A program made the position numbers and the translations under genes. The notes beneath the pieces are model-generated. The model saw only the letters and a list, made by a program, of their open reading frames with translations, ran no database searches and was not told where the DNA came from. A stretch of 64,000 nt of DNA from positions 35,577 through 99,576 of the forward strand of contig JAJFKV010000025.1 of NCBI GenBank assembly GCA_021773055.1, read 5' to 3'. The DNA is from Woeseiaceae bacterium. Lineage in GTDB: Bacteria; Pseudomonadota; Gammaproteobacteria; Steroidobacterales; Woeseiaceae. The stretch's first letter is position 1, and every line of letters starts with the position of its first letter. Shown one piece after another: positions 20,030 through 52,628 of the stretch.

Positions 20030-20044
20030 TTGCTCCGTGATAAG

Positions 20045-21970
20045 ATGCGATTCGATAATCAGCGCAGGAATAACAACATCAATACTCGCAAGCTGGTCCC
20101 AGGGAAGTTACCTGTCATCGCGTCCGCTGCAGCTGTTCTCGCGGCGGTCTTTTCATTTTCAGCTCACGCCATCGAAGTCGAAACCCCGGCAGTTGCATTA
20201 AGCGGCGTTTCGATGACCTATACGGTCAGCGATGCGACTCCGGGTGACTTCGTTAGTATTGCAGTTGGTGGCAAATCCTTCAGTGCCATTGCGGACGACA
20301 ACGGACAGGCTGAATTCACCGATGTGGCAATTGCTGCGGCAGGTGAAACCACCGTCACGGCAACTGCTGGCGGAGCATCAGCAAAGGTCTCCGTGCGTGT
20401 AATACCGGGTTGGGTTTCGATTCTGCCGGCAGTAATGGCAATCGCGATTGCCCTGACTTTGCGCAACGTAATTCCAGCCCTGTTGCTCGGCTTGTGGCTG
20501 GGTGCAACCGCCTTGCAATCATTTAGTGCGAAGGGCGCAGGACTTGGCCTGCTGGATACTTTTCAGGTCTTTGTCAGAGGCGCGCTGGCGGATTCAGATC
20601 GTGCATCCATTGTCCTGTTCACGATGATGATTGGCGGCATGGTGGGAATCATTACTCGCAATGGTGGCATGGCCAGTATCGTTCTTGCCATTGTGAGTCG
20701 GGCGAAGACCGCGATCGGTGGACAAGTGGCTGTCTGGCTGATGGGCATGATGATCTTTTTCGATGACTACAGTAATACGCTGGTGGTCGGGAATACCGCC
20801 AGGTCATTGACGGACCATCTGAAGATATCACGTGAAAAACTCGCCTACATCGTCGATTCGACCGCAGCTCCCGTCGCGTGTATCGCCCTCATTACTACAT
20901 GGATTGGCTATCAGATTGGCCTCATTGATCAGGCGCTGGGGACAATCCCCGAGCTCGCCGATTTTCAGGCGTACTCCGTGTTTATCCAGTCAATTCCATA
21001 CAGTTTTTATCCGATTCTGGCGATAGCATTTGTGCTGATCGTTGCATCTTCCGGTCTTGATTTTGGTCCGATGTATAAAGCAGAAGTCAGGGCCAGGGGT
21101 GGCAAGGTAAAACCGGAAATGGCAGAGGCATTACCCGCGCTCGAAGGTGAAGAATTGTCACCGAAAGACAATATTCCCCTGCGCGCATTTAATGCGTTTA
21201 TTCCCATCATCGTATTAATCGTTGCGTTGGGAGCGAGTCTTGTCGCGCTGGGCGAAGGTGACACGTTGACGCGAATTCTGGAGACCACTGAGCCGTACAA
21301 GGCGATGATGTATTCATCATTTATGGGCGTTCTTGCCGCTGCAACACTGACCATTGGCCAGGGAATACTGTCGGTTCACGAAACGATCGATGCCTGGTAT
21401 GGGGGCCTCCGAGCCACTTTGTTCGGCATGATCATTCTGGTACTGGCGTGGTCACTGTCGGACGTTACCGCTGCGTTGCATACGGCATCGTATCTCGTAA
21501 CCTTGCTCGCTGATTCACTGCCCGTAGCGCTGATACCGGCGATCGCATTCATTCTTGCGGCAATCACAGCTTTTACGACGGGTACAAGCTGGGGCACCAT
21601 GGCGATACTGATGCCATTAATCATTCCGCTCTCCTGGGCTGTCATGACCGTGCATGGGGTAGCGGATCCGAGCGGTATGCACATTATGTATTCGGCGATC
21701 GCATGCGTTCTTGCCGGCGCAGTGTGGGGTGATCATTGCTCGCCGATTTCAGACACGACCGTGTTGTCTTCCATTGCCAGTGGTTGCAATCACATCGAGC
21801 ACGTTCGCACGCAGCTTCCATATGCGCTGTTGGTAGGAGCGGCGAGTCTTCTGATTGGAACCATACCCGGGGGGTATGGAGTGCCGCCCTGGATATCATT
21901 GTTAGTCGGCGTCTCGGTTCTGTACGCAATTCTAAAAACATTCGGACGGCGCGCCGAGGCGCAGACGTGA
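20045..21970 (+). CDS. NhaC-family Na+/H+ antiporter with N-terminal extracytoplasmic beta-type domain
   Basis: C-terminal NhaC-like (MMIFFDDYSNTLVVGNTARSLTD, TGTSWGTMAILMPL, WGDHCSPISDTTVLSS); N-terminal signal-like segment then about 80 aa beta-rich Ig-like domain. Confidence 0.88.
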   Translation: MRFDNQRRNNNINTRKLVPGKLPVIASAAAVLAAVFSFSAHAIEVETPAVALSGVSMTYTVSDATPGDFVSIAVGGKSFSAIADDNGQAEFTDVAIAAAGETTVTATAGGASAKVSVRVIPGWVSILPAVMAIAIALTLRNVIPALLLGLWLGATALQSFSAKGAGLGLLDTFQVFVRGALADSDRASIVLFTMMIGGMVGIITRNGGMASIVLAIVSRAKTAIGGQVAVWLMGMMIFFDDYSNTLVVGNTARSLTDHLKISREKLAYIVDSTAAPVACIALITTWIGYQIGLIDQALGTIPELADFQAYSVFIQSIPYSFYPILAIAFVLIVASSGLDFGPMYKAEVRARGGKVKPEMAEALPALEGEELSPKDNIPLRAFNAFIPIIVLIVALGASLVALGEGDTLTRILETTEPYKAMMYSSFMGVLAAATLTIGQGILSVHETIDAWYGGLRATLFGMIILVLAWSLSDVTAALHTASYLVTLLADSLPVALIPAIAFILAAITAFTTGTSWGTMAILMPLIIPLSWAVMTVHGVADPSGMHIMYSAIACVLAGAVWGDHCSPISDTTVLSSIASGCNHIEHVRTQLPYALLVGAASLLIGTIPGGYGVPPWISLLVGVSVLYAILKTFGRRAEAQT

Positions 21971-21978
21971 TTAGGTGA

Positions 21979-22752
21979 ATGCAAGTGCCCGCCAGACCCA
22001 CCATTGCTGTCCCATCTGACCGGCGTATTCTGGACCCTCACCCGTCACACACTACTGGCGAAAAATACCTGCGTGCGATCATTGACGGCGCAAACGGATT
22101 GCCCATTATCGTGCCGTCCATGGCGGAGGACATCAGTGTCGATGAAATCCTTGATCGCATTGATGGCATTGCTCTGACCGGCAGCTACTCCAATATCGAG
22201 CCACATTATTACGGCGCGGAACCGGCAGGGGATAGTGGTTTCCACGATCCACACCGCGATGCGATGACGCTACCGCTTGCATTGCGAGCGCTTGCAAGGG
22301 GCGTTCCGTTACTCGCCGTTTGTCGGGGGCACCAGGAGTTAAACGTTGCTCTGGGCGGCACATTGCATCAAAACCTGGACGACGTTCAGGGCTATCACAG
22401 TCATCTTGAGAACAAATCGGATCCGCTGGACGTGCAGTACGGGCCGTCGCATTCGGTGTCAATGATGGAAGGTGGGTTGTTACGTCAGTTGGCAGGCGTG
22501 GACTCGATCCTGGTGAATTCATTGCATGCGCAGGGAATTGCGAAGCTCGCGGATGGCGTAACCGTCGAGGCCGTTGCCGATGACGGCTTGATCGAAGCAT
22601 TCACCGTCGATACAGCGCCCGGTTTCAATCTGTCCGTGCAGTGGCATCCTGAATGGCGAGTAACTGAAAATGAATTTTCGATGAAAATATTCAAGGCATT
22701 TGGTGACGCGTGCAGATCACGCTCAGCAGAACGACAGGTGCATTGTGAGTAA
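21979..22752 (+). CDS. Gamma-glutamyl-gamma-aminobutyrate hydrolase family (class I GATase-like)
   Basis: PLLAVCRGHQELNVALGGTLHQ catalytic Cys motif, VQWHPEW; PuuD-like. Confidence 0.92.
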   Translation: MQVPARPTIAVPSDRRILDPHPSHTTGEKYLRAIIDGANGLPIIVPSMAEDISVDEILDRIDGIALTGSYSNIEPHYYGAEPAGDSGFHDPHRDAMTLPLALRALARGVPLLAVCRGHQELNVALGGTLHQNLDDVQGYHSHLENKSDPLDVQYGPSHSVSMMEGGLLRQLAGVDSILVNSLHAQGIAKLADGVTVEAVADDGLIEAFTVDTAPGFNLSVQWHPEWRVTENEFSMKIFKAFGDACRSRSAERQVHCE

Positions 22753-24076
22753 AGACGATGTCTTTCAGGCTTGGTTACAGGAACGCAAAATCGAAGATGT
22801 TGAAGCGTTCGTTCCGGACATGGCCGGTTCCGCACGTGGCAAGGTGATCCCGGCCGACAAGTTCGGGACTAGTCAGGTCAAAATGCCAGAGTCAATCTTC
22901 TCGCAAACCATTTCGGGCGACTACATCGACGATGTGAACAACGTCGAGGATCGTGACATGTTGCTGGTACCCGACCCAACAACACTTCGCCCGGTACCGT
23001 GGTTGTCTGACCCTGCTGCCTCGGTATTTTTTGACTGCTACCACCGTGATGGCACTCAGGTCGCGAAATCTCCGCGCTCCGTGTTACGAAACGTTCTCGC
23101 GAAATTCGAGGCACGCGGCTGGATACCCGTAGTTGCACCGGAAGTCGAATTTTACCTGTTGAGTCCGCACTCGGACCCACAAGCGGACCCGAAGCCACCG
23201 GAGGGCCGCCTTGGGCGGACCGAGAATGTTCGGCAGCCCTTCAGCATTGACACGATGAACGACTTTGAGCCGTTTATTTTCGACGTCTATAAATATTGCG
23301 AAGCTCAGGGGATTCGGGTTGACACGCTGTCCCAGGAGATGGGTCCTGCGCAGCTGGAGATCAACTTCAAACATGGCAACGCACTTGATCTTGCCGACCA
23401 GGTGTTCCTCTTCAAGCGCACACTTCGTGAGGCCGCCATTCTTCATGAAATTCATGCGACATTTCTCGCCAAACCGTATTCCGGGGAGGCCGGCAGTTCA
23501 TTGCACATTCACCAGAGTGTTCTCGACAAGAAGGGCGACAACATATTTTCGCAAGACGACGGACAGGCGAGCGATCTGTTCCACGGCTATCTTGGCGGAC
23601 TGCAGCGCTACATGCCCGATGTCATGCTGACTTTCGCGCCCTACGTCAATTCCTACCGACGCTTCATCAACCCGCAGTGTTCTCCCGTTAATCTGGCGTG
23701 GGCGATAGATAACCGCACTGTTGGCCTGCGGGTCCCGGACTCACCACCAGAAGCTCGGCGGGTTGAAAACCGGTTGGCCGGGTCTGACGTGAATCCCTAC
23801 CTGGCGATCGCGGCTACTTTGGCGTGCGGTTATCTCGGTATGGTGGAGGGGCTGAAGCCAAGCGCAGAAACGGAAGGTAGTGCCTATGGCGGCGAAATCG
23901 ACTTGCACCGACATATTTACCCGGCGATCGATGCTATGCGAGATAGTGCAGCAATGCGAAGTATGCTCGGCGATGAATTCGTGACGCTGTATACGGACCT
24001 AAAAGACGCCGAATATCGTGAATTTCAAGAAGTCATCACGCCGTACGAACGTGAAATCCTAATGTTCAATGTTTAA
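22745..24076 (+). CDS. Glutamine synthetase family protein, PuuA-like
   Basis: GTG start; EMGPAQLEINFKHG, YSGEAGSSLHIHQSVLD, NSYRRFINPQCSPVNLAWAIDNRTVGLRVP, ENRLAGSDVNPYLAIAA. Confidence 0.92.
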   Translation: MSKDDVFQAWLQERKIEDVEAFVPDMAGSARGKVIPADKFGTSQVKMPESIFSQTISGDYIDDVNNVEDRDMLLVPDPTTLRPVPWLSDPAASVFFDCYHRDGTQVAKSPRSVLRNVLAKFEARGWIPVVAPEVEFYLLSPHSDPQADPKPPEGRLGRTENVRQPFSIDTMNDFEPFIFDVYKYCEAQGIRVDTLSQEMGPAQLEINFKHGNALDLADQVFLFKRTLREAAILHEIHATFLAKPYSGEAGSSLHIHQSVLDKKGDNIFSQDDGQASDLFHGYLGGLQRYMPDVMLTFAPYVNSYRRFINPQCSPVNLAWAIDNRTVGLRVPDSPPEARRVENRLAGSDVNPYLAIAATLACGYLGMVEGLKPSAETEGSAYGGEIDLHRHIYPAIDAMRDSAAMRSMLGDEFVTLYTDLKDAEYREFQEVITPYEREILMFNV

Positions 24077-24086
24077 TGAGGTTGTT

Positions 24087-25460
24087 ATGGCCGCAATAGA
24101 GAAACGCTCACGGGAAGACTGGCAGGAACTCGACAAGAACCACCACCTGCACCCGTTTACCAATCACAAAGAGCTGCACGAGCAACGCTCGCGGATCATC
24201 ACGCGTGCGGATGGCGTCTATATTTTCGATGCAGACGGCAACAGGATTCTGGATGGTATGTCGGGTCTGTGGTGTGTGAATGCGGGCTACGGGAGGCAGG
24301 AGTTGATCACGGCCGCATCTGCACAGATGCAGGAATTGCCGTACTACAATAATTTCTTCCAGTGTGCGCACCCTCCTGTCATCGAACTTTCTTCATTGTT
24401 GAAAGAAGTTAGCCAGCCGCAGTTCAACAGAGTGTTCTTTGCCGGTTCCGGTTCCGAGTCAAACGACACCATCGTACGCATGGTACGAACCTACTGGGAT
24501 CTGATGGGGCAACCGGAACGGCATACGATAATCAGTCGCGATAATGCGTATCACGGCTCAACCGTGGCGGCGGCCAGCCTGGGCGGTATGAAGGCCATGC
24601 ACAAACAGAGCGGGCTGCCGATTCCCGGGATTGTGCATGTCGATCAGCCCTACTGGTTTGGCAGTGACCAGGCCTTGTCACCAGATGAATTCGGCATTGT
24701 AGCGGCTCGCTCCATCGAGGCGAAAATCAAGGAACTCGGAGCAGACAAGATCGCCGCGTTTATCGGAGAACCGATTCAGGGTGCCGGTGGCGTTATTGTG
24801 CCGCCGGATACGTACTGGCCGGAAGTCCAACGAATCTGTGATGAATACGGCATCCTCTTGATTGCCGACGAAGTGATAACAGGGTTTGGCCGACTGGGTG
24901 AATGGTTCGGCTCAGACTACTTTTCAATAACTCCTGATTTCATGCCGTTCGCCAAGGGCGTTACATCGGGCTATCTGCCACTGGGTGGCGTGATGGTCAG
25001 CGACCGGGTTGCCGACGTTCTTATCGACAAGGCAGGTGAGTTCTTCCATGGTTACACCTACTCCGGGCACCCGGCGTCCTGTGCCGTTGCCATCGCAAAT
25101 CTGAAGCTGATTCAGCGCGACAATCTTGTCGGACGTATCAAGGACGATATCGGCCCCTACCTACAAGGGAAATGGGCCGCCCTGGCTGATCATCCATTGG
25201 TCGGGGATACTCGCATGGTCGGTCTCATGGGCGCGTTCGAAATCGTCAAGAGCAAGAGTCCGTTGCAGCGCTTTGACCAGGAGCAGGGCGCAGGTGGGAA
25301 GTGCCGAGACCATCTCATTGCAAATGGCGTTTGCATGCGTGCCGTTGGCGATACGATTATTTGTGCACCACCGTTCATCCTCTCGCACGGCGAGGCAGAT
25401 GAATTGATTGAAACGACCTGGAAGGCGCTCGATCTGACGCAAGCTGCGTTGGCGGAGTAG
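24087..25460 (+). CDS. Class III PLP aminotransferase (putrescine/beta-alanine:pyruvate type)
   Basis: GMSGLWCVNAGYGR, GSGSESNDTIVRMVRTYW, LLIADEVITGFGRLGEWFGSDYF, PFAKGVTSGYLPLGG (PLP Lys). Confidence 0.93.
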   Translation: MAAIEKRSREDWQELDKNHHLHPFTNHKELHEQRSRIITRADGVYIFDADGNRILDGMSGLWCVNAGYGRQELITAASAQMQELPYYNNFFQCAHPPVIELSSLLKEVSQPQFNRVFFAGSGSESNDTIVRMVRTYWDLMGQPERHTIISRDNAYHGSTVAAASLGGMKAMHKQSGLPIPGIVHVDQPYWFGSDQALSPDEFGIVAARSIEAKIKELGADKIAAFIGEPIQGAGGVIVPPDTYWPEVQRICDEYGILLIADEVITGFGRLGEWFGSDYFSITPDFMPFAKGVTSGYLPLGGVMVSDRVADVLIDKAGEFFHGYTYSGHPASCAVAIANLKLIQRDNLVGRIKDDIGPYLQGKWAALADHPLVGDTRMVGLMGAFEIVKSKSPLQRFDQEQGAGGKCRDHLIANGVCMRAVGDTIICAPPFILSHGEADELIETTWKALDLTQAALAE

Positions 25461-25465
25461 TCGCG

Positions 25466-26416
25466 ATGGATAAACACGATAACGATCATGCAATAACTCG
25501 CGAGGACCTTCGCGGTACGACACCCGAGCCCACCTACGGCGGTGTAACCTCGTTCATGCGCCGCAAGTATACGAAGGACATGAGCGGTGTCGATGTAGCC
25601 GTTCTGGGAGTGCCGTTCGATACAGCAACCACCAATCGACCAGGTACTCGGCTGGGGCCACGAGCGATCCGCAATGCGTCAACCATCATGGCGTGGGAGC
25701 GGCCCTACGGCATGGATTTTGATCCATTCGAAAAGCTCGCTGTAGTTGATGCCGGCGATGCTCATTTCGACTTCGGCCGGCCGGAACAGGTGCCGGATGC
25801 GATCGAAGCGGCCGCGTACGGAATTATATCGAAGGGCCCGGGCCTGCTGACGCTGGGCGGTGATCACTTCATCTCCTATCCGTTGCTTAAAGCGCATGTC
25901 AGCAAACACGGCGGCCCAATTTCAATTTTGCATTTTGATGCTCACAGCGATACCTGGGCCGATGAGAACGACCGCATCGATCATGGCACCATGTTTTGGT
26001 GGGCAACGAAACAAGGCCTGATTGATCCTGCGACATCGGTGCAGATCGGAATACGAACGTCGAATCCAGATACTTTGGGCTTCAATATTATCGACGCAAC
26101 GAAGGTGCACTCGCAGTCAATCGAGGCCACCGTCGCAGCAGCCCGAAAATGGCTTGGCGACACGCCGGTTTATGTGACTTTCGACATCGATTGCCTGGAC
26201 CCAAGCTACGCCCCGGGAACCGGAACACCGGTTTGTGGCGGTCTGACCAGTCATCAGGCGATGTCTGTTTTACGCGGGCTGCAGGGTATCAACGTGATCG
26301 GCATGGACGTCGTTGAGGTTGCGCCAGCCTATGACGTCGGGGAAATCACCGCGTTGGCGGCGAGCCATATCGCTATGGAGTTGCTGTACCTGTACGCTAA
26401 TCGCCCGGTATCTTAA
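25466..26416 (+). CDS. speB: Agmatinase/ureohydrolase family
   Basis: GGDHFISYPLL, LHFDAHSDTW, VYVTFDIDCLDPSYAPGTGTP. Confidence 0.88.
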   Translation: MDKHDNDHAITREDLRGTTPEPTYGGVTSFMRRKYTKDMSGVDVAVLGVPFDTATTNRPGTRLGPRAIRNASTIMAWERPYGMDFDPFEKLAVVDAGDAHFDFGRPEQVPDAIEAAAYGIISKGPGLLTLGGDHFISYPLLKAHVSKHGGPISILHFDAHSDTWADENDRIDHGTMFWWATKQGLIDPATSVQIGIRTSNPDTLGFNIIDATKVHSQSIEATVAAARKWLGDTPVYVTFDIDCLDPSYAPGTGTPVCGGLTSHQAMSVLRGLQGINVIGMDVVEVAPAYDVGEITALAASHIAMELLYLYANRPVS

Positions 26417-27114
26417 GTGACGGTAGCCGTTTTTGGCTGCCAGTCCGCCGGCATATCGCCCGGCAGGAAAATCGCGATGATCAGTTCCGAAATCGCCTCC
26501 AGCGTCGCGGGATCCTCAATATCAATTCCGCTTGAGGCCTTGAGCTCATTGCCAAGCGCCAGCAGGCCGCCCGAGGAGAGGCGAATCATGCTGAACAGCA
26601 GGGCAGGATCGCCAGCCGGCGTGACACCTAATTCCTGTAATTTTCCGATCATGCGGAAAGTCACTTCGAACAACGGTTTCAGGTGTTCTTCGATGAGCCA
26701 GTCGAGCCTCGGGTTTGGATAACTCGCCTCTTGCACCATCACTTTGTGCAAAGCGGGCTGGCTTTTCGCATAGGTTACGTAGGCACGAATCAGCGCAGAC
26801 ATGCGCATCTTCGGGCACATGTCCCGGTATTCTTCCAATGACTTTGCCAGAGACAGCGTAAATGCGCTGAATATGTAGTCGGCGGCCGCGCGCCAGAGTT
26901 GGTCTTTGTTCTTGAAGTGGTAGGTGATCAGTGGATGGTGTACACCGGCCCGTTCTGCTATGTCACGTGTCGATGTACCTTTGAATCCGTTCTCTGAGAA
27001 CGCTTCGACCGCAGCATCGAGAAGTTTTCGCTGCGTAACAATGCTGCGCTGTTGTTGTTTACGCACCGGTGGGTCCGATTGCAGAGCGGATTCTTGTAAC
27101 ATTATTTTTCCCAA
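26413..27114 (-). CDS. TetR-family transcriptional regulator
   Basis: LLDAAVEAFSENGFKGTSTRDIAERAGVHHPLITYHFKNKDQLW. Confidence 0.93.
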   Translation of the reverse strand: MGKIMLQESALQSDPPVRKQQQRSIVTQRKLLDAAVEAFSENGFKGTSTRDIAERAGVHHPLITYHFKNKDQLWRAAADYIFSAFTLSLAKSLEEYRDMCPKMRMSALIRAYVTYAKSQPALHKVMVQEASYPNPRLDWLIEEHLKPLFEVTFRMIGKLQELGVTPAGDPALLFSMIRLSSGGLLALGNELKASSGIDIEDPATLEAISELIIAIFLPGDMPADWQPKTATVT

Positions 27115-27203: not shown

Positions 27204-30131
27204 TCATTCGAGCGCGAACATCATTCGGACGCCGACAACTTTCTCGATGAGCACACCATTCTCGATCACGCCTTCGAATTCCCATTTCTCCACGGCCTTT
27301 CTGGCGGCGTTGACGAAGGTGTCGCCAGGTTCGGAGTTCCGGATTTCAATATCCTTAACCGTACCATCGGTCTTTACCGTGAACACGACATCTACCCAGC
27401 CGGACAGGCCACGGCGTTCTGCACCGCGCGGGTACTTGGGTGACACATATCTGGTGCGATTCAATGAGCTGACAGCGGCTGGTTGTTGAGCTTTAGCAAC
27501 AGTTTGCTCAGGCTGAGCTGGCTTGCCGGCTTCGCCGGCTGCTGTGCTGGCCTCGGTATTTGCATCCGTAAGCGGCGCTGCGGAGTCCGCTGCCGGCTGT
27601 TGCAGAGCGGCGAGTCTTTCGGCTTCTGCCACTCGTTCTGCTGCGGCAAGTCTTTCGGCTTCTGCTACTCGTTCTGCATCGGCAATTCGTTCAGCTTCTG
27701 CGACTCGGTCTGCCTCGGCAAGTCTTTCAATCTCGGCCAGCCTATCTGCCTCCGCCTTTCGTTCGGCCGCCGCGAGTCTTTCTGCCTCTGCCCGGCGATC
27801 GGCTTCCGCACGACGCTGCTGTTCAGCAATCGCTGCGCGAGTGTTTGCCAGCGCCGTTACCGTTGACGCGACCTCGACATTGGCCGGATCGAGCGCATGC
27901 GCCTCCGCCAGAATATCTTCAGCTGTGTTCAGATCACCGTTATCCATGGCCGTGCGCGCTTGAAATGCAAGCTTGCCGGCGATAGCGCTGAGCCCCTGAC
28001 GTGCGGCTGTGTTCCCGGCATCGTTCGACAAAACGAGCTGGTAATAATAACGAGCGTTGTCATTCGCAGGGCTCATCAACTCACCGGCATCGAGTCTGGC
28101 AGCTGCCTTGGCGAGTACACTGTCGACTTGTTGCGCGCTGCGTCCGGCGCTGAGTTCAGCATCGACAACGTTGATCTCCGTATTGTCCGCGACATTCAGA
28201 TTGCGAGCGGCACTCAACGCGACCGCCGCATCTTCGAAGCGGTTCTCGCGAATCGCAACACGAGCACCGTCAAGGTGACCCCGTAATTGCATCTGTGCCA
28301 GTTGCGCATTCAGGAACGGCAGTCGTGAATTTTCCGGATCAACTGCGGCAACGCGCCGCAGTGCAGCTTCGGTATCATCCAGCTGCGATTCCAGCAGTGC
28401 CGTTTCTGCCATTCCCAGCGCCTGTCCGACGACGGCGTCTAACTCGGCAGCGACAATAGAATTCTCCGGATCAGCAGCTAATGCCGAGGCGAACATCTCG
28501 ATCGCATTGCTGCCCACGGGGTTAAAAATCTGTCCAGCATCACGAGCAAGCCTGGCTTCATCCAGCAATGCCGATACATCCACAGTAGCGGCCAGCGGTG
28601 CTGCTTCCTCGAATACGGCATCGGCCTCGGTAATGGAGGGCGTGCTCTTTATCTCTACCGGCCGAACGGTCGCGTCGTCCGACCCGCTCATGAGCCAGAA
28701 CGAGGCGCTCGCGACGATGGCGACGGCCACAACGCCGATACCCATGATCTTTGGGGCACGGAACAATGAACCGCCGGATCCCGAGGTATCTGCGGGTAAT
28801 CCGTCTACAGCCAGGTCGAGATTGGATGTGTCTTTGACCGGCGGCGCGCCCGGAGCGGATTCTGTTTTCTTGTCGGACCTGAATTTATTGCCGACCGAAC
28901 CAATCAGTCCGGTAACGGTTTCTACAAAGCTTGAATCGTCCTGACCGAACGCATCTGCGAGGCCGTCTTCAACCGGAGAACTGCCATTCACTGCAGTTGC
29001 TGAGCCTAAAGGCGGGTCCGCCGGCGCTACGGATTCGACTGGTTTGGGTTTGGGTACGGGCGCGGGGGCTGCTACCGGTTTGGGCGCAGGCTTCGGTGTT
29101 ACTTTGGCAACTGGTTTTGGCGCGGGCTTTGCTGCCGGCTTGGGCGCTGGTTTGGCCGCCGCAGGCTTCGGGCTCGCCGGAATACCTTTGGACTTGAATG
29201 CAACATCCGGCGCTTCAAGATGGTGCTTGACTGAGGACTCGACCGCAAGTCGCGCTCGGCCTGGCGATACAGGTTTCAGGAGGAAGCGATAGACTTTGCC
29301 ACGGTTGATGAGGTCCATCAGCATTTCGCCGTCATCGCGACGACCTGCAACGATAGAGACCAGCCTCGCTGAGCCTTTGCGGAGATGCTGCGTTAGTTGT
29401 TCGATTTTTTCGCCGACCATGGCGGCATCAACAACTGCAACGCCGATTTTGTGTTTTCGAATTATTTCGTTCGCCTGGCCCAGGGTGTTCGCGTAATAAA
29501 CTTTGTGCATGCCGCGTGAAGAGTCCTTGATGGTCTCCAGGAACTCCTGGTCCTTGGTTAACACGAGAACGTCAACGGCACCCGAGCCAACACTTGCTGC
29601 TTCCGAAACTTTCTTCGGGTCCAGCACCGGCAAACGGCCAGTGCCATCACTAATTATTGTAGAGCCGTTTTCCGAAGTCTCCATGACAATATGCTCGGCC
29701 GACATATCCACACTTGCGGTCGTATCGTTAGCTGATTCCGCGAGTGCCATCAAACGCATCTGACGGGTCGCGTTTTCAACAAGCTTCAGCAGCCCATCTC
29801 CGGTGACGCTGCCGCTTACCACCTGGAATACTTCTTCTTCGCCGACGAGCGCTTCCACGTCGGTGGTTGAATTACCGGCAAGCAATATACCGATTGTGTC
29901 CGGCGAACGTTTCTTCGCCTCACGAAGTGCATCGAGCCCGCTCATACCCGGAAGGTCGTGAGCGGTAATAATTACGTTAATCGGCGTTTCGACTAGAGTG
30001 TTGAGAGCTTCGCTTCCGCTGGTCGCGCAATGCACCGTATAGCGGTCATTGAACCCCGAACTGAGATTGTCCAGAGTGCTTTGCTCACTATGCAGTAACA
30101 ATACCTGTGTTTTATATTCGTCCAACGGCAC
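27204..30131 (-). CDS. Multidomain protein: pseudo-receiver, receiver-like, Pro/Ala linker, TM, repeat region, TonB C-terminal domain
   Basis: 975 aa; N-terminal REC-like folds, PKPAPKPAAKPAPKPV linker, TM VVAVAIVASASFWLM, AEADRxAEAER repeats, C-terminal YPRGAERRGLSGWVDVVFTVKTDGTVKDIEI. Confidence 0.85.
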   Translation of the reverse strand: MPLDEYKTQVLLLHSEQSTLDNLSSGFNDRYTVHCATSGSEALNTLVETPINVIITAHDLPGMSGLDALREAKKRSPDTIGILLAGNSTTDVEALVGEEEVFQVVSGSVTGDGLLKLVENATRQMRLMALAESANDTTASVDMSAEHIVMETSENGSTIISDGTGRLPVLDPKKVSEAASVGSGAVDVLVLTKDQEFLETIKDSSRGMHKVYYANTLGQANEIIRKHKIGVAVVDAAMVGEKIEQLTQHLRKGSARLVSIVAGRRDDGEMLMDLINRGKVYRFLLKPVSPGRARLAVESSVKHHLEAPDVAFKSKGIPASPKPAAAKPAPKPAAKPAPKPVAKVTPKPAPKPVAAPAPVPKPKPVESVAPADPPLGSATAVNGSSPVEDGLADAFGQDDSSFVETVTGLIGSVGNKFRSDKKTESAPGAPPVKDTSNLDLAVDGLPADTSGSGGSLFRAPKIMGIGVVAVAIVASASFWLMSGSDDATVRPVEIKSTPSITEADAVFEEAAPLAATVDVSALLDEARLARDAGQIFNPVGSNAIEMFASALAADPENSIVAAELDAVVGQALGMAETALLESQLDDTEAALRRVAAVDPENSRLPFLNAQLAQMQLRGHLDGARVAIRENRFEDAAVALSAARNLNVADNTEINVVDAELSAGRSAQQVDSVLAKAAARLDAGELMSPANDNARYYYQLVLSNDAGNTAARQGLSAIAGKLAFQARTAMDNGDLNTAEDILAEAHALDPANVEVASTVTALANTRAAIAEQQRRAEADRRAEAERLAAAERKAEADRLAEIERLAEADRVAEAERIADAERVAEAERLAAAERVAEAERLAALQQPAADSAAPLTDANTEASTAAGEAGKPAQPEQTVAKAQQPAAVSSLNRTRYVSPKYPRGAERRGLSGWVDVVFTVKTDGTVKDIEIRNSEPGDTFVNAARKAVEKWEFEGVIENGVLIEKVVGVRMMFALE
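27600..27820 (-). repeat. Tandem 18-bp coding repeats encoding the R(L/V/I)A(E/D)A(E/D) hexapeptide
   Basis: Repeated DNA block such as 'gcaagtctttcggcttctgctactcgttctgc' inside the TonB-fusion gene. Confidence 0.8.
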
Positions 30132-30369
30132 TTCGCTTCCTCCAAAGTCTTATGTCGAATCGCTCGCGCGGTCCTTGCGTCAAAGTAGTATAGCCTTGGG
30201 TTTCAGCGAGAACGTCGTCCGGTCGCGACAGAATGCCGGAACTGTGACGCGGCGCACAGTGAAAGTGCAGGGCGCGTCACGTTTGCCGTTACTGCGTCAG
30301 TGGGAAACGCGACTTACCGCAGCAGCACTGGCTTTGCGGTATTCTGACGGTCGCCAAGTGAACTTTTGA

Positions 30370-32292
30370 TCAGTCGCTGGCGCCTCGATTCTCGATCTCT
30401 GTTTTTAAAGCATTTATGGCGTCGTCAAGCGACATAACCTGTTGGCTCTTGGAGCCAATCCGGCGTACTGCGACCGATCGATTGTCGAGTTCTCGCTGAC
30501 CGACCGCAAACTGTACCGGCACTTTAGCGACGCTGTGTTCACGAACTTTGTAAGAGATCTTCTCGTTGCGAAGGTCGGTCTCAGCTCGCAATCCTGCAGC
30601 ACTAAGCAGTGTTTCAATCTCTGTAGCGTATTCGTCCGCATCAGATGTAATCGTTAATATCTTGACCTGTACCGGCGCGAGCCACAGTGGCAGGTTGCCG
30701 GCGTGGTGCTCGATCAAAATACCCATGAAGCGTTCGAGCGACCCGAAGATGGCGCGATGCAGCATTACGGGCAAATGCTTTTCGCCATCCTCGCCGATGT
30801 AAGCAGCGCCGAGTCGTCCCGGCATGTTGAGGTCAACCTGCAGGGTGCCACATTGCCAGTCACGACCTATCGCATCACGCAGCACGAACTCGAGTTTGGG
30901 TCCGTAAAAGGCGCCTTCGCCGGGATTGTGGGTGTACTCGAGCCCAGCAACATCGAGCGCTTTCACGAGGGCTGCCTCAGCCTGATCCCAGACGGCATCT
31001 TCACCGACCCGGACTTCCGGTCGATCGGCGAACTTGATGCGAACGTCGGCAAAGCCAAACGTTTTGTAGATACCGAGTATCAGGTCGCAAACGGCGATCG
31101 ACTCTGCGGTGATCTGCTCGGGCGTGCAAAAAATATGTGCGTCGTCTTGTGTAAAGGCGCGCACTCGCATCATGCCGTGCAGTGCACCGGACGGTTCGTA
31201 GCGGTGGCACTTGCCAAATTCAGCCAGTCGAACCGGCAGGTCCCGGTAACTGGTAATACCCTGTTTGAATACTTGTACATGGCCGGGGCAGTTCATCGGT
31301 TTAACGGCGTAAACGCGTCCGTCGACAGTCTCTGACGTAAACATGTTGTCGCCAAAAGCCGCGTTGTGGCCGGACTTCTCCCACAACGCTTTCGCCATAA
31401 TTTCAGGGGTATTGATCTCCTGGTAACCGGCTTCGTTTTGTTCTTGCCGCATGTAGCCGATCAGCGACTGGAACACAGACCAGCCATTCGGATGCCAGAA
31501 AACGGCTCCCGGCGCTTCTTCCTGGAAATGGAACAGATCCATGACCCGACCTAAACGGCGGTGATCGCGTTTTTCGGCTTCCTCGAGCATACGCAGGTGC
31601 TGGCGTAACTGCTTGTCGTTTGACCAGGCGGTGCCGTAGATACGCTGCAACATTTCGTTGTCGGAGTCACCGCGCCAGTACGCACCAGATACATGCGTTA
31701 ACTTGAATGATTTGCCGAGTTTGCCGGTTGTCGGAAGATGTGGGCCACGGCAGAGGTCGATGAAATCTCCCTGACGGTATAGCGTCAAATCCTCTGTGGA
31801 TGGAATGCTCTCAATAATCTCGGCTTTGTAATTTTCACCCATGCCGCGGAAAAATTCGGCTGCTTTGTCGCGTTCCCAAACCTCACGTTCGATGGGTTCG
31901 TTGCGGTCCACGATATCCTTCATTCGAGCCTCGATGGTCTCAAGGTCTGCGTCGGTGAATGCTTCCTCGCGCGCGAAGTCGTAGTAAAAACCATTCTCGA
32001 TCGCCGGACCGATGGTTACCTGAGTATCCGGCCATAGCTCTTTCACCGCCTCAGCGAGGACGTGGGCAGCGTCGTGGCGCAAGAGCTCCAGTCCATCATC
32101 GGAATCGCGTGTCAGAATTTCGAGTGCCGCATCGTTTTCGATCGGGCGGCTGAGGTCCCACAGTGCGCCGTCCACTCGAACGGCGACGGCTGCTTTGGCA
32201 AGGCCGGCACCAATACTGGCTGCGACATCGGCGCCACTGACCGCGGCATCAAATTGACGCTCGGAACCATCGGGTAAAGTGATTTTCGGCAT
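30370..32292 (-). CDS. thrS: Threonyl-tRNA synthetase
   Basis: 640 aa; TGS domain, [66 protein letters not shown]. Confidence 0.98.
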
Positions 32293-47686: not shown

Positions 47687-50600
47687 TTAATCTGCAATCA
47701 GGTTTCGTAATTGCTGTGCCGCGACAGTAAGCGTGGCAAAATCAACTTCGTCGCGTAATTGCATTTCTTCCATCATTTGCTTGAAGCGTTCGACTTCTAC
47801 CGCTTTTTTCTTCAGCCATGCCGTGGTGATCTTGCCGGGTTCCTGTTTACTTCGAGGAGCCAGTAACTTGAACGCGAGCTGTCGTCGCAAGCTATAAAAT
47901 TCGTCGCGCAGACTACTGCGCGCCATCGCCTGCCAACGACCGTCAACCTCCAGGTCCTCAGCCTGATTGTGCAGCCAGTACAACGTCAATTCATCATTGA
48001 GTGCCGAGTACAGGCGTCCCGCGTCAAGAACGTCGCGTTTACGTTCAGCCGCCAGGTCAGCCATGTCGAGCGCCGGCCGTGTGAGCAACAGCAGGGACAT
48101 GCGATTGGCGAGTTTCTCGGGTACACCCATGCCGATGTAGCGCTGCTCCGCTCGTTCGTGACGGGCTCTCGCTGCCCGGGAAACGTATACGGCAGAACGG
48201 GAGTAAATGCGCGCCATGTTATCTTTTAGTCGATCGACTGCTTTTACGATGTCGAGTTCATCGCCGTATTGCTCGATCAACCAGTAACAGACATGACGCA
48301 AGGTGCGGCTGACTTCGAACATCATCGATACTTGTGCACGTGCCGGGATCTGGTAATCAAGCGATTCGATTTTTCGGAGTAGTGGACCGGCTCGGCAAAT
48401 TATTCGCGCTACTTCGTAGGCCCTGGCGACAGTAATGATGTTTGCCTCGGTGTCGACTTGCACGCGCTTTGCGAATGCGGGACCCATACGATTAACAAGG
48501 TCGTTAGCCACCAGTGTCGCCAAAATCTGCCGACTCAATCGATGTCCTGGCAGCAAGTCAGAATAGCGCTGCCTGAGCACCTTCGGGAAATATCGTTGTG
48601 GATCGATAGCCAGAAAATCTACAAGCGATTCTTCGGAGTCGATCAGTCCGTTGTACAGGTCAATTTTCGCGTAGCTTAGAACGACGGCCAGTTCGGGTCG
48701 GGTGAAACCCAGCTTGCGACTGCGGCGTTCGTCAATCTGTGCCTGATCCGGCAGGAATTCAATCTCGCGATTCAATAGGCCGGTTCGCTCGAGATCGGAT
48801 ATCAGGCGTGCCGTCTCGTCAATACGATCCGCCGACAGTGTTTCGCTAATGCTGATCGACTGTGTCTGCAGGTAATTATTCCGCAGTACAAGTTCGGAAA
48901 CACTCTCAGTCATGGATTCAAGCAATACGTTGCGCTTCGCGCGTGTCATATTTTTTTGCTTGGTCGCATCACTGAGTAGAATCTTGATATTGACTTCACG
49001 GTCGGAGCAATCAACACCAGCAGAGTTGTCGATGAAGTCCGTGTTAATACGACCGCCACAAAGGCTGTATTCAACGCGGGCCAGTTGAGATAAGCCCAGA
49101 TTGCCGCCCTCGCCAATCACCTTGCAACGTAATTCGTTGGCATTCACGCGTACAGCATCATTGCTGCGGTCGCCTGCATCTGCGTGACCTTCGTGGCTGG
49201 CTTTCGCATAAGTACCAATGCCACCATTCCATAGCAGGTCGACCGGCATTTTTAGAATTTCACTGATCAGCTGGTCGGGCTTCAAGGAGGTCGCGTCGAT
49301 ATCCAGCAGTTTGCGAACTTCGTTGCTGAGCCGGATAGTCTTTGCCTGGCGGGAATAGACACCGCCGCCCTTGGAAATCAGGGTGTCGTCGAAGTCTTCC
49401 CAGCCGGTGCCCGGCAATTTGAAAAGTCGTTGACGCTCGCGATAGCTGCGTGCCATATCCGGATCCGGATCCAGGAATATATTGCGATGATTGAAAGCTG
49501 CAACCAGTTTTATCTTGCGCGACAGCAGCATGCCATTGCCGAAAACGTCGCCCGACATATCGCCGATTCCTGCGACTGTAAAAGGGTTTTTCTGCGTATT
49601 CAGGCCGAGCTCGCGGAAATGACGTTTGACCGCTTCCCAGGCACCCTTGGCAGTAATGCCCATCTTTTTGTGGTCATAGCCGGCGGAGCCACCTGACGCG
49701 AAAGCATCATCGAGCCAGAAGCCATACTCCGCAGAAATTCCATTTGCGATATCGGAAAATGTTGCGGTGCCTTTGTCCGCCGCGACGACCAGATAGGGAT
49801 CATCGCCGTCTCGCCTTACGATGCCATCAGGCGTGACGACTTTGCCGTCGACGACGTTGTCGGTGAGGTCGAGCAAGGCGCTAATGAATGTCTTGTAACA
49901 ATGGATACCGTTTTGTGTGATCGCATCACGATCACCACTTGGTGCCCGTTTCGGGAAAAAGCCACCTTTGGCTCCGGTCGGAACGATGACCGTATTCTTA
50001 ACCACCTGCGCCTTCATCAGGCCAAGAATTTCGGTACGAAAATCTTCACGCCGGTCGGACCAGCGCAATCCGCCACGCGCGATATCGCCGCCACGAAGAT
50101 GCACTCCTTCCACCTCGGGCGAGTAGACAAATATTTCAAACTTGGGTTTCGGTAGCGGGATCTCCGGCAACTGCGCGGGGTCCAGCTTGATGGATAGTGA
50201 TGGTTTCGCGTTGCCATCATCGGTCAGGAAGTAATTGGTGCGCAGGGTCGCGTTAATGCCACCGGCAAATGCAGTGAGGATTCTATCCTCATCAACATTC
50301 TTCGCCTTTGACACGCCGCGAGCGACCGCCTTTCTTACCCGTTTTAGCTCACGGCTACGGCGAGCCTTGCCAATAGCGGGATCGAACTGCAGCTCAAATT
50401 GCTCGACCAGCAACGGCACAAGACCTGCGTGTGCGACCAGTACATCTTCAAGATAGGCCTGACTGAACGGCACTCCGAGTTGCTGAATATGTTTTGCATA
50501 GCAACGCAATAGCGCGGTTTGTCGCCAATCCAGTCCACTGGCGAGGACCAACCTGTTGAGGCCGTCATTCTCCGCATCGCCGCTTGCAACCGCGAGAAAA

Positions 50601-52480
50601 CATTCCTCGAAGCGCGCATCAACAGACTCGAAATCTACAGATCTGCCGCCCTCATGCACCAGGTGAAAGTCCTGCATCCAGAACGACTGTCCGGATGCGA
50701 GCTCCGCCTTGTAGGGTCGCTCTGAGTAAACGTCCACTCCCATGTTTTCGATGACCGGCAACGCGTCTGACAGAGATATCGGTGCGTCCGTACTGTAGAC
50801 CATGAAATTTAAATGGCCGGGCTCCGAATTCGGCGGAACATACAGATCGACAGAGCGTGCAATATTGTCGGCGAGCATCGTGTCGATGCGCTGGACGTCG
50901 GAACAGGCTTCCGAAGGTAGTGTGTCAGCCTGATAGCCGGGAGGAAAGATCTTGCCGTAGGCGTTGAAAAGTCGCTGACCTTCTTCATAGTCAAACTCTT
51001 CCAACATTCTTCGTCGCAGTCGGTCGGACCAGGTAACAACAAGTTCAGCTATGCGTTTTTCAATGTCATGGATGCTGATATGCGGCCGTCCGCCTTCTAC
51101 GATACGTACGATGATGTGTACGCGGGCAAGGGCGGATTCAGATATTTGTACGGCCGAATCAACGCTAATGCCATCGAATGATTCCTTCAGCAGTGCCTCC
51201 ACACGCCTTCTGATCGCCGTGGTGTATTTCTCGCGCGGGATAAAAACGAGACACGAGAAGAATCGCCGAAACATATCGCGCCGCAGAAAGAACTTAACGC
51301 GCTGTCGATCCTGAAGATTCAAAATGCCGAACGTTGTGCGTGCCAGATCCTGAACGGAACTTTGAAAGAGTTCCTCACGCGGATAGGTTTCGATTATGTG
51401 GGAAAGCGCCTTGCCACGGTGTCCGTATTGGTCTACGTGTGCTCTTTCGAAGATCTTCGTAATTTTATGACGCAGCAACGGTATATTTTTCGGGCTCTCG
51501 TTGTAGGCGACGGACGTGAGCAGCCCAATAAATCGTCGCTCACCAACTACATTGCCTTTTTTGTTGTAGATTTTGACGCCGACATAATCGAGGAACGCCG
51601 ATCGATGCACGGTAGAGCGCGAATTTGCTTTGGTCAGAATAAGCCAATCACGGGATCTCGTCAGCCGTCGCATCTCGGTGGTTAGTTCGGTAACTTTGGA
51701 GCCGCGGTCATCTTGGCTTAGTACGCCAAGGCCGCTGCCTTCAACCGAGCGAAGGAAGATGCGCTTGCCCTTGTTCGATAACTTGTATTCCCGGTACCCG
51801 AGGAAGGTGAAATGGTCGTCGACCATCCATTCGAGCAGTGCCTGGCTTTCCGTGCGCAGCAGCGGATCGACACCCTTTGGGCCATTCTCAAGTAAATCGC
51901 ACGTTTCGCACATGCGTTCGCGCATCTTCTTCCAGTCGCGAACCGAAACCCGGATATCACGCAGGACTTTGCTGATCTCCTGCTGCAGTATTCTTAGTTG
52001 TTTCTGATCTGATTCACGCGAGATCGCCAAACGAATGAACGATTCTGGTGTTGCGCCTTTAGCGCCAGCTTTCGCGATTGCCGTTAATTTACCTTTGCCA
52101 TTTCGCTGCGCCCAAATAATCGGGTGTACGGTGATCTGGACGGTCAAATTATGGTGATTGACTGCGGCAGCAACAGAGTCGACGAGAAACGGCATGTCGT
52201 CATTCACCATTTCAATGAATGTAAATCCCGACGTATAGCCGTGTTCTTTCTTGTTTGGGTTAAATATTCGGAGTAGTGCTTGTCCTTTACGACGTGTGGC
52301 GCCGAAATCCAGGTGATCGACGGCCGCGCGGGCCATGATCTCAACGGAGCGGCCTTGCAGGTCTTCAACCGGTACATTCTTAACGTACTGTATAAGGAAT
52401 CGCTTTGTTTGAGACGGCTTGCTGAGGGTTTTCGATCTGACTCGAGCGGAGGTAATTCCATCGACGATCGTTTTTTTCAT
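47687..52480 (-). CDS. gdhB: NAD-specific glutamate dehydrogenase, large type
   Basis: About 1600 aa; [89 protein letters not shown]. Confidence 0.96.
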
Positions 52481-52628
52481 GTCGCCGACGCGACGGCCTT
52501 CTTTTGATGCCACGCTACTACTCCGGCCGGTCACGCCGACCAAAAATTTAGGGACTCGAAATGGCGCACGGCATTATAACGTAATTGCATTCGAAACCAT
52601 CCCCCTGCAGAGAATGGTTAATAAAAAA

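Follow-up and report, generated by a model that had tools for sequence, protein, structure and literature searches.

The window, that is, the whole 64,000-nucleotide stretch of Woeseiaceae DNA analysed here, encodes on its reverse strand a 975-aa protein (27204..30131, (-)) that runs from two receiver domains (REC1 and REC2) through a linker, a transmembrane (TM) helix, a TPR-like domain and a long helix to a TonB C-terminal domain (TonB_C). The open reading frame (ORF) starts with GTG and is preceded by a GGAGG SD site at about 30139-30143, 7-8 nt upstream. Pfam searches matched Response_reg (7e-13, best stretch aa 16-106) and TonB_C (6e-14, aa 897-961); these matches, together with the SD site and the conservation of the protein, rule out a chance ORF or an annotation artefact. 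An assembly fusion of adjoining genes was likewise ruled out, since some 60 genomes, one of them a complete 4,059,891-bp contig, encode the protein as a single ORF. Scans for promoters and terminators at the gene returned matches at chance level only.

The cytoplasmic part of the protein encompasses about 460 aa and contains both receivers. REC1 (29748..30110, (-); aa ~8-128, extending to ~134 in the AlphaFold model) was delimited from the Pfam match, a census of 63 orthologs and AlphaFold and Foldseek results, and REC2 (29214..29579, (-); aa 185-306) from the same census (63/63) and a complete beta/alpha receiver fold in the model. They are followed by a Pro/Ala/Lys-rich cytoplasmic linker (28938..29195, (-); aa 313-398), identified from composition and alignment, of which the first 60 residues (aa 313-372) include 19 P, 15 A and 12 K; both its length and its sequence vary among orthologs in the alignment. 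Hydropathy over 41 homologs and a motif scan over 103 placed a single TM helix at 28686..28748 (-) (aa 462-482), preceded by Lys and followed by Asp, with an N-in/C-out topology by the positive-inside rule. The helix contains no His and no SHLS motif.

On the periplasmic side, a TPR-like helical domain (27891..28577, (-); aa 519-747) was modelled by AlphaFold with pLDDT above 90 and returned TPR matches in Foldseek. The long Ala/Glu/Arg-rich helix that follows (27609..27878, (-); aa 752-841, model residues 297-386), recognised from the AlphaFold model and its composition, comprises ~90 residues; unbroken, and with a rise of 1.5 A per residue, it would be about 135 A long. The TonB C-terminal domain (27216..27458, (-); aa 892-972; model pLDDT 85) superimposes on that of Pseudomonas aeruginosa TonB (6i97, 6i97_D) with 34% identity and 1.0 A rmsd in Foldseek, and the C-terminus also matches NCBIfam TIGR01352 (8e-12). 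The pTM values of the two AlphaFold models of the protein are 0.43 and 0.50, and the relative placement of the domains is hence uncertain. Among orthologs, the mean majority-residue frequency is at least 0.80 in REC1, REC2 and TonB_C.

This layout agrees with the initial annotation, which had read two N-terminal CheY-like domains, a (PKPA)n-type linker, one TM helix near 28.7 kb, a periplasmic helical or repeat region and a TonB-type C-terminal domain, and had described the whole as a non-textbook TonB connected to a cytoplasmic signalling-type module across one TM. Domain, topology and structure evidence support that description, and the layout rules out an ordinary TonB.

Active sites of the two receiver domains

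A non-receiver fold had been put forward as the outcome that would contradict the annotation of the N-terminal domains. AlphaFold modelled both as beta/alpha receivers, complete in REC2 (aa 187-306 in the model) and without a confident alpha4 in REC1, and the best PDB matches of the pair in Foldseek were the tandem receivers of PleD (E 3.5e-11), followed by single receivers at 2-3 A. By sequence match REC2 is weaker than REC1; Response_reg was matched by all 43 orthologous N-termini scanned.

The active-site census covered 63 fused proteins and 12 REC1 sequences from relatives in which the receivers are encoded by a separate gene (the split form, see below), using a canonical split REC1 as the ruler. 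In REC1 of the 975-aa protein, H14 and S15 occupy the positions of the acid pair (DD), A57 that of the phospho-acceptor Asp, A85 that of the Thr and G107 that of the Lys, leaving none of the five response-regulator residues (acid pair, acceptor Asp, Thr/Ser, Lys). The acceptor Ala is present in 60/63 fused orthologs, and His, Ser, Ala and Gly at the other four positions in 62/63 each. The first receiver had been called degenerate, with HSEQ for the DDE pocket and Ala at the phospho-acceptor position, and both features are correct and nearly fixed among orthologs. The split-form REC1 retains D1 in 12/12 sequences, D2 in 10/12, the acceptor Asp in 12/12, the Thr in 10/12 and the Lys in 12/12.

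REC2 keeps only the Asp and the Lys of these residues. Where a canonical receiver has D-D-E, REC2 reads T-K-D, T192 and K193 standing at the acid pair, and the fused orthologs present Thr/Ser, then Lys/Gln/Arg, then an invariant Asp (63/63). D194, the acceptor D235 and K286 (window 29274-29552) are invariant in all 63; the Asp (VAVVDAAM) and Lys (LLKPV) picked out initially are correct. The switch Thr/Ser is replaced in 63/63, with Gly in the aligned column and Ala one column before. REC2 of the split form, and of relatives with a single receiver, is likewise short of acids. These residues rule out an ordinary response regulator.

Invariant columns make up 40% of REC1 and 55% of REC2 among fused orthologs, which ranks both domains with the best-conserved regions of the protein. 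Their conservation despite the loss of catalytic residues argues for selection on their surface, as in a docking or dimerisation domain. Given that REC2 lacks the acid pair and the switch Thr/Ser in all fused orthologs, the protein probably does not operate as a phospho-switch and, judging from its residues, its phosphorylation appears unlikely. The absence of both metal-binding acids and of the switch residue in 63/63, which the initial annotation had missed, also weakens the initial suggestion that the second receiver might be phosphorylated.

Distribution, gene neighbourhood and rearranged relatives

The Woeseiaceae are abundant in marine sediment, and most of the sequences compared here come from metagenome-assembled genomes. 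The fused protein was detected in 33 of 36 same-genus genomes (E below 1e-130), the exceptions being two reduced 1.5-Mb genomes and one other, and in sampled genomes of 7/8 other Woeseiaceae genera, including the complete 4,059,891-bp contig (L183); the remaining genus has reduced genomes. Named matches (71 loci) came from metagenome-assembled genomes whose labels read Woeseiaceae, Chromatiales or simply Gammaproteobacteria/Proteobacteria. The survey across genomes proposed in the initial annotation hence outlines a protein conserved throughout the lineage.

The fused gene lies between thrS (30370..32292, (-)), the conserved upstream neighbour, identified by Pfam and syntenic in nearly all same-genus loci, and a gene for a TetR-family regulator downstream (26413..27114, (-); Pfam TetR_N, synteny). 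No operon partner of the fused gene was found among its neighbours and, as neither thrS nor the tetR gene hints at a function, no operon that includes the fused gene is apparent. The region at window 20030-27114 comprises genes for a Na+/H+ antiporter-family transporter, glutamine-amidotransferase-like and glutamine-synthetase-like proteins, a class III aminotransferase, an arginase-family protein and the TetR regulator, and resembles an operon for the catabolism of polyamines or guanidino compounds, with synteny kept within the genus. Elsewhere in the window, 47687-52543 encodes a large NAD-dependent glutamate dehydrogenase of 1618 aa.

Comparative searches identified several rearranged relatives. 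In the split form, three same-strand genes follow each other in a conserved order, with gaps of mostly tens of bases or less: the first encodes a membrane histidine kinase (HisKA/HATPase_c), the second a soluble REC-REC protein and the third a TM-TPR-TonB_C protein. Split operons occur within the genus of the fused gene, in further Woeseiaceae genera and in several additional families of the order, and some same-genus genomes, such as G012, G010, G005 and G026, carry both forms. In two genomes of one family (f6), a secreted-looking TonB_C protein is encoded directly downstream of the split-operon TonB gene (L212:8733-9872 and L221:2179-3288), a possible extra member of the operon. In many families of the order, a single-REC form combines a REC2-like domain, TM, TPR and TonB_C in one protein. 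A further arrangement joins a Ser/Thr kinase to a TM and a TPR-like/TonB_C tail, with five examples (L215:4951-7767, L216:5326-7887, L217:7525-9948, L218:5602-8142 and L222:7421-9931), four of which were scanned and matched Pfam Pkinase with E 5e-36 to 5e-41; these proteins may be receptor-kinase-like. One fused copy (L204), of a rare type, has a semi-canonical REC1. The histidine kinase of the split operon was not found at 1e-60 in the window genome, which is 89% complete, and is also missing from most same-genus genomes that carry the fused gene.

A profile of the TM-TPR-TonB module matched 152/196 genomes of the order at 1e-18, with genomes matched over TonB_C alone counted in. Beyond the order, the module returned no match in roughly 270 genomes of the class at 1e-35, and in a phylum survey (399 genomes, 1e-30) it was matched only in the window's own genome, the other match being to TonB_C alone. 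In 369 genomes of the class, a search at 1e-22 found the REC-REC protein nowhere beyond the order; the only matches there were to single receivers. The confinement of both elements to the order in these surveys indicates a lineage-specific, modular family. The initial annotation had described the protein as standing alone; this holds for the lack of ExbB/ExbD nearby, but the protein is no lone curiosity, belonging to a conserved family with split and kinase-fused relatives.

Two trees, both obtained with quick searches, address the relationships among these forms. In the receiver tree, fused and split REC1 group together (SH-aLRT 96), and the envelope-module tree, where the rows L208 and L213 labelled 'fused' are single-REC forms, pairs fused proteins with the single-REC form and split proteins with kinase-fused ones, at modest support (91). 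Since the module tree sets the fused form nearer to single-REC than to split proteins, no claim is made about the ancestral arrangement, and the split operon as the source of the fused form is one scenario among others.

Candidate function at the cell envelope

The SHLS motif of TonB-type TM helices contacts ExbB/TolQ (PMC12215075), and the D-box that follows the TM of TonB binds ExbD (PMC10907165). The SHLS (SxxxH) motif was found in the TM of 0/103 homologs and a D-box-like pattern after the TM in 3/103; the 38-residue post-TM stretch has 0 invariant columns and ranks with the least conserved regions of the protein. ExbB and ExbD had been noted as absent from the window, and in fact no ExbD or MotA/ExbB match was present on its entire contig; 9 ExbD and 8 MotA/ExbB matches were located on other contigs of the genome. 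The lack of SHLS, of a conserved D-box and of nearby ExbBD suggests that the fused protein is probably not a Ton energy transducer. The TM histidine of TonB is usually held to be essential. Yet no TM His is present in a 201-aa TonB of the same genome (L161, contig C7), whose operon also holds two ExbD and two ExbB-family genes, so the missing SHLS alone makes energisation less probable and no more, and the argument from the missing His against energisation was softened accordingly. It is possible that the fused protein works partly like a TonB energy transducer. Also in this genome, L162:6684-7901 encodes a membrane peptidase-like protein of M56/BlaR1 type that ends in a TonB_C domain.

These data bear on a reading in which the protein would be a dedicated TonB that uses one of the genomic ExbB/ExbD sets to serve one specific TonB-dependent transporter, while the receiver pair controls how active it is or where it is placed. 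The TonB_C fold match is excellent, several ExbB/ExbD sets could act in trans and, with the Ton-operon TonB as precedent, the missing His is not decisive. Regulated transduction of this kind nonetheless appears unlikely in view of the motif scans, the distance to any ExbB/ExbD gene and the bulky TPR domain between TM and TonB_C, which is unlike textbook TonBs. It is doubtful, too, that information flows inwards, with the TPR/TonB part sensing the state of the outer membrane or wall and the receiver pair reporting it to a cytoplasmic effector. Fusion of the tail to Ser/Thr kinase domains, typical of membrane receptor kinases, would agree with such a sensor, but in the split operon a putative periplasmic sensor part belongs to the histidine kinase itself and the REC-REC protein is soluble, so that an inside-out direction fits better.

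A switch operated by an unlinked histidine kinase through phosphorylation of REC2 seems highly improbable. Invariance of D194, D235 and K286 speaks for it, and D235 and K286 also constitute a point against a phosphorylation-independent function, as they could sustain residual or unusual chemistry; against such a switch, the acid pair is changed to T/S and K/Q/R and the switch Thr to Ala/Gly in all fused orthologs, and REC2 is equally acid-poor in split and single forms, REC1 being the plausible acceptor when present.

We favour, with about even confidence, a fixed, phosphorylation-independent adaptor leading from the cytoplasm to the outer-membrane side. The REC1-REC2 pair, having lost its phospho-switch, would offer a conserved cytoplasmic partner a platform for docking or dimerisation. 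One TM would then lead to the TPR-like periplasmic domain, potentially another docking site, and the long helix would carry the TonB-type domain to the outer membrane or peptidoglycan, where it may contact a TonB-dependent transporter or the cell wall. In keeping with such an adaptor, the sequences place one envelope tail on different predicted cytoplasmic signalling heads (receivers, Ser/Thr kinase). We infer from this architecture that the fused protein couples a signal to the envelope.

The split and kinase-fused relatives provide the real clue to the function of the fused protein, which may descend from, or be sister to, a two-component relay. In the split form, the membrane histidine kinase, with its putative periplasmic part, would phosphorylate REC1, and the phosphorylated REC1-REC2 would change its pairing and bind or release the cytoplasmic end of the TM-TPR-TonB protein, a flow suggested by gene adjacency. 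In the fused form the receivers are covalently attached and devoid of catalytic residues, and no such kinase was found in the genome, for which reason a constitutive adaptor, tethering a cytoplasmic partner to the envelope, is the best reading. More tentatively, and at somewhat less than even confidence, we propose a two-component branch in the Woeseiaceae and related families that would run from histidine kinase to tandem receiver to an envelope-spanning TonB-like output, with the window protein as its fused, kinase-free, constitutive form. To our knowledge, two-component outputs are nearly always DNA binding, enzymes or cytoplasmic protein binding; if such a branch exists, cytoplasmic phosphorylation would act mechanically or by docking at the outer membrane, and not on DNA or enzymes. 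The histidine kinase operon, the fused kinase-free form and the Ser/Thr kinase form offer three natural variants for testing direct cytoplasm-to-outer-membrane signalling, and the fused version is kept in most Woeseiaceae sampled, including the complete single-contig genome.

Comparison with known systems

PleD of Caulobacter (REC-REC-GGDEF), the top structural match, shares with the fused protein the tandem receivers and a degenerate second receiver. The second receiver of PleD is a non-phosphorylated dimerisation adaptor, which speaks for the adaptor reading of the fused protein, and the pairing of its receivers changes on phosphorylation. A canonical REC1 combined with a degenerate adaptor REC2, as in PleD, is found in most split relatives, whose REC1 keeps the canonical sites, but not in the window protein, whose first receiver is dead too; furthermore, the output of PleD is a diguanylate cyclase and that of the present family a TM-TPR-TonB module. 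With TolA, the protein has in common a TM, a long Ala/Glu/Arg-rich helix in the periplasm after it and a C-terminal domain of TonB-like type, and it shows a weak match to NCBIfam tolA (1.8e-5). It differs from TolA in lacking SHLS, in a C-terminal domain that matches TonB, in its additional receivers and TPR domain and in the absence of tolQR/tolB/pal neighbours. The TonB of the ExbB/ExbD-TonB systems of Escherichia coli and P. aeruginosa shares the C-terminal fold, the single TM and a trans-periplasmic linker; two receivers, a TPR domain and the lack of SHLS, of a conserved D-box and of linked ExbBD set the fused protein apart.

No TonB with receivers, no histidine kinase operon feeding a TonB-like protein and no Ser/Thr kinase version was found in the open literature, subscription journals lying outside its scope, and these three features are, within that literature, new. 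The alternative considered in the initial annotation, an architecture already described as a family, likewise met with no description there. A study of cyanobacterial SjdR described TonB proteins as generally devoid of a cytoplasmic domain and demonstrated a role of a TonB-like protein in the structure of the wall (PMC8262864). The nearest precedent found is GltG of Myxococcus, which consists of FHA plus TonB_C (PMC3169522), so that TonB-like proteins with a signalling domain in the cytoplasm are already a known kind. GltG/PglI and GltJ/AgmX of the Myxococcus xanthus gliding machinery (PMC3169522, PMC8262864) share with the fused protein a cytoplasmic signalling-type domain (FHA in GltG), a single TM, a periplasmic part and a TonB-type C-terminus, and use the TonB-like end for a purpose other than nutrient uptake. 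They part ways in that GltG carries an FHA head, is encoded together with gliding-complex proteins of TPR and barrel type and interacts with the AglR motor, whereas the fused protein carries receivers and is encoded between thrS and tetR.
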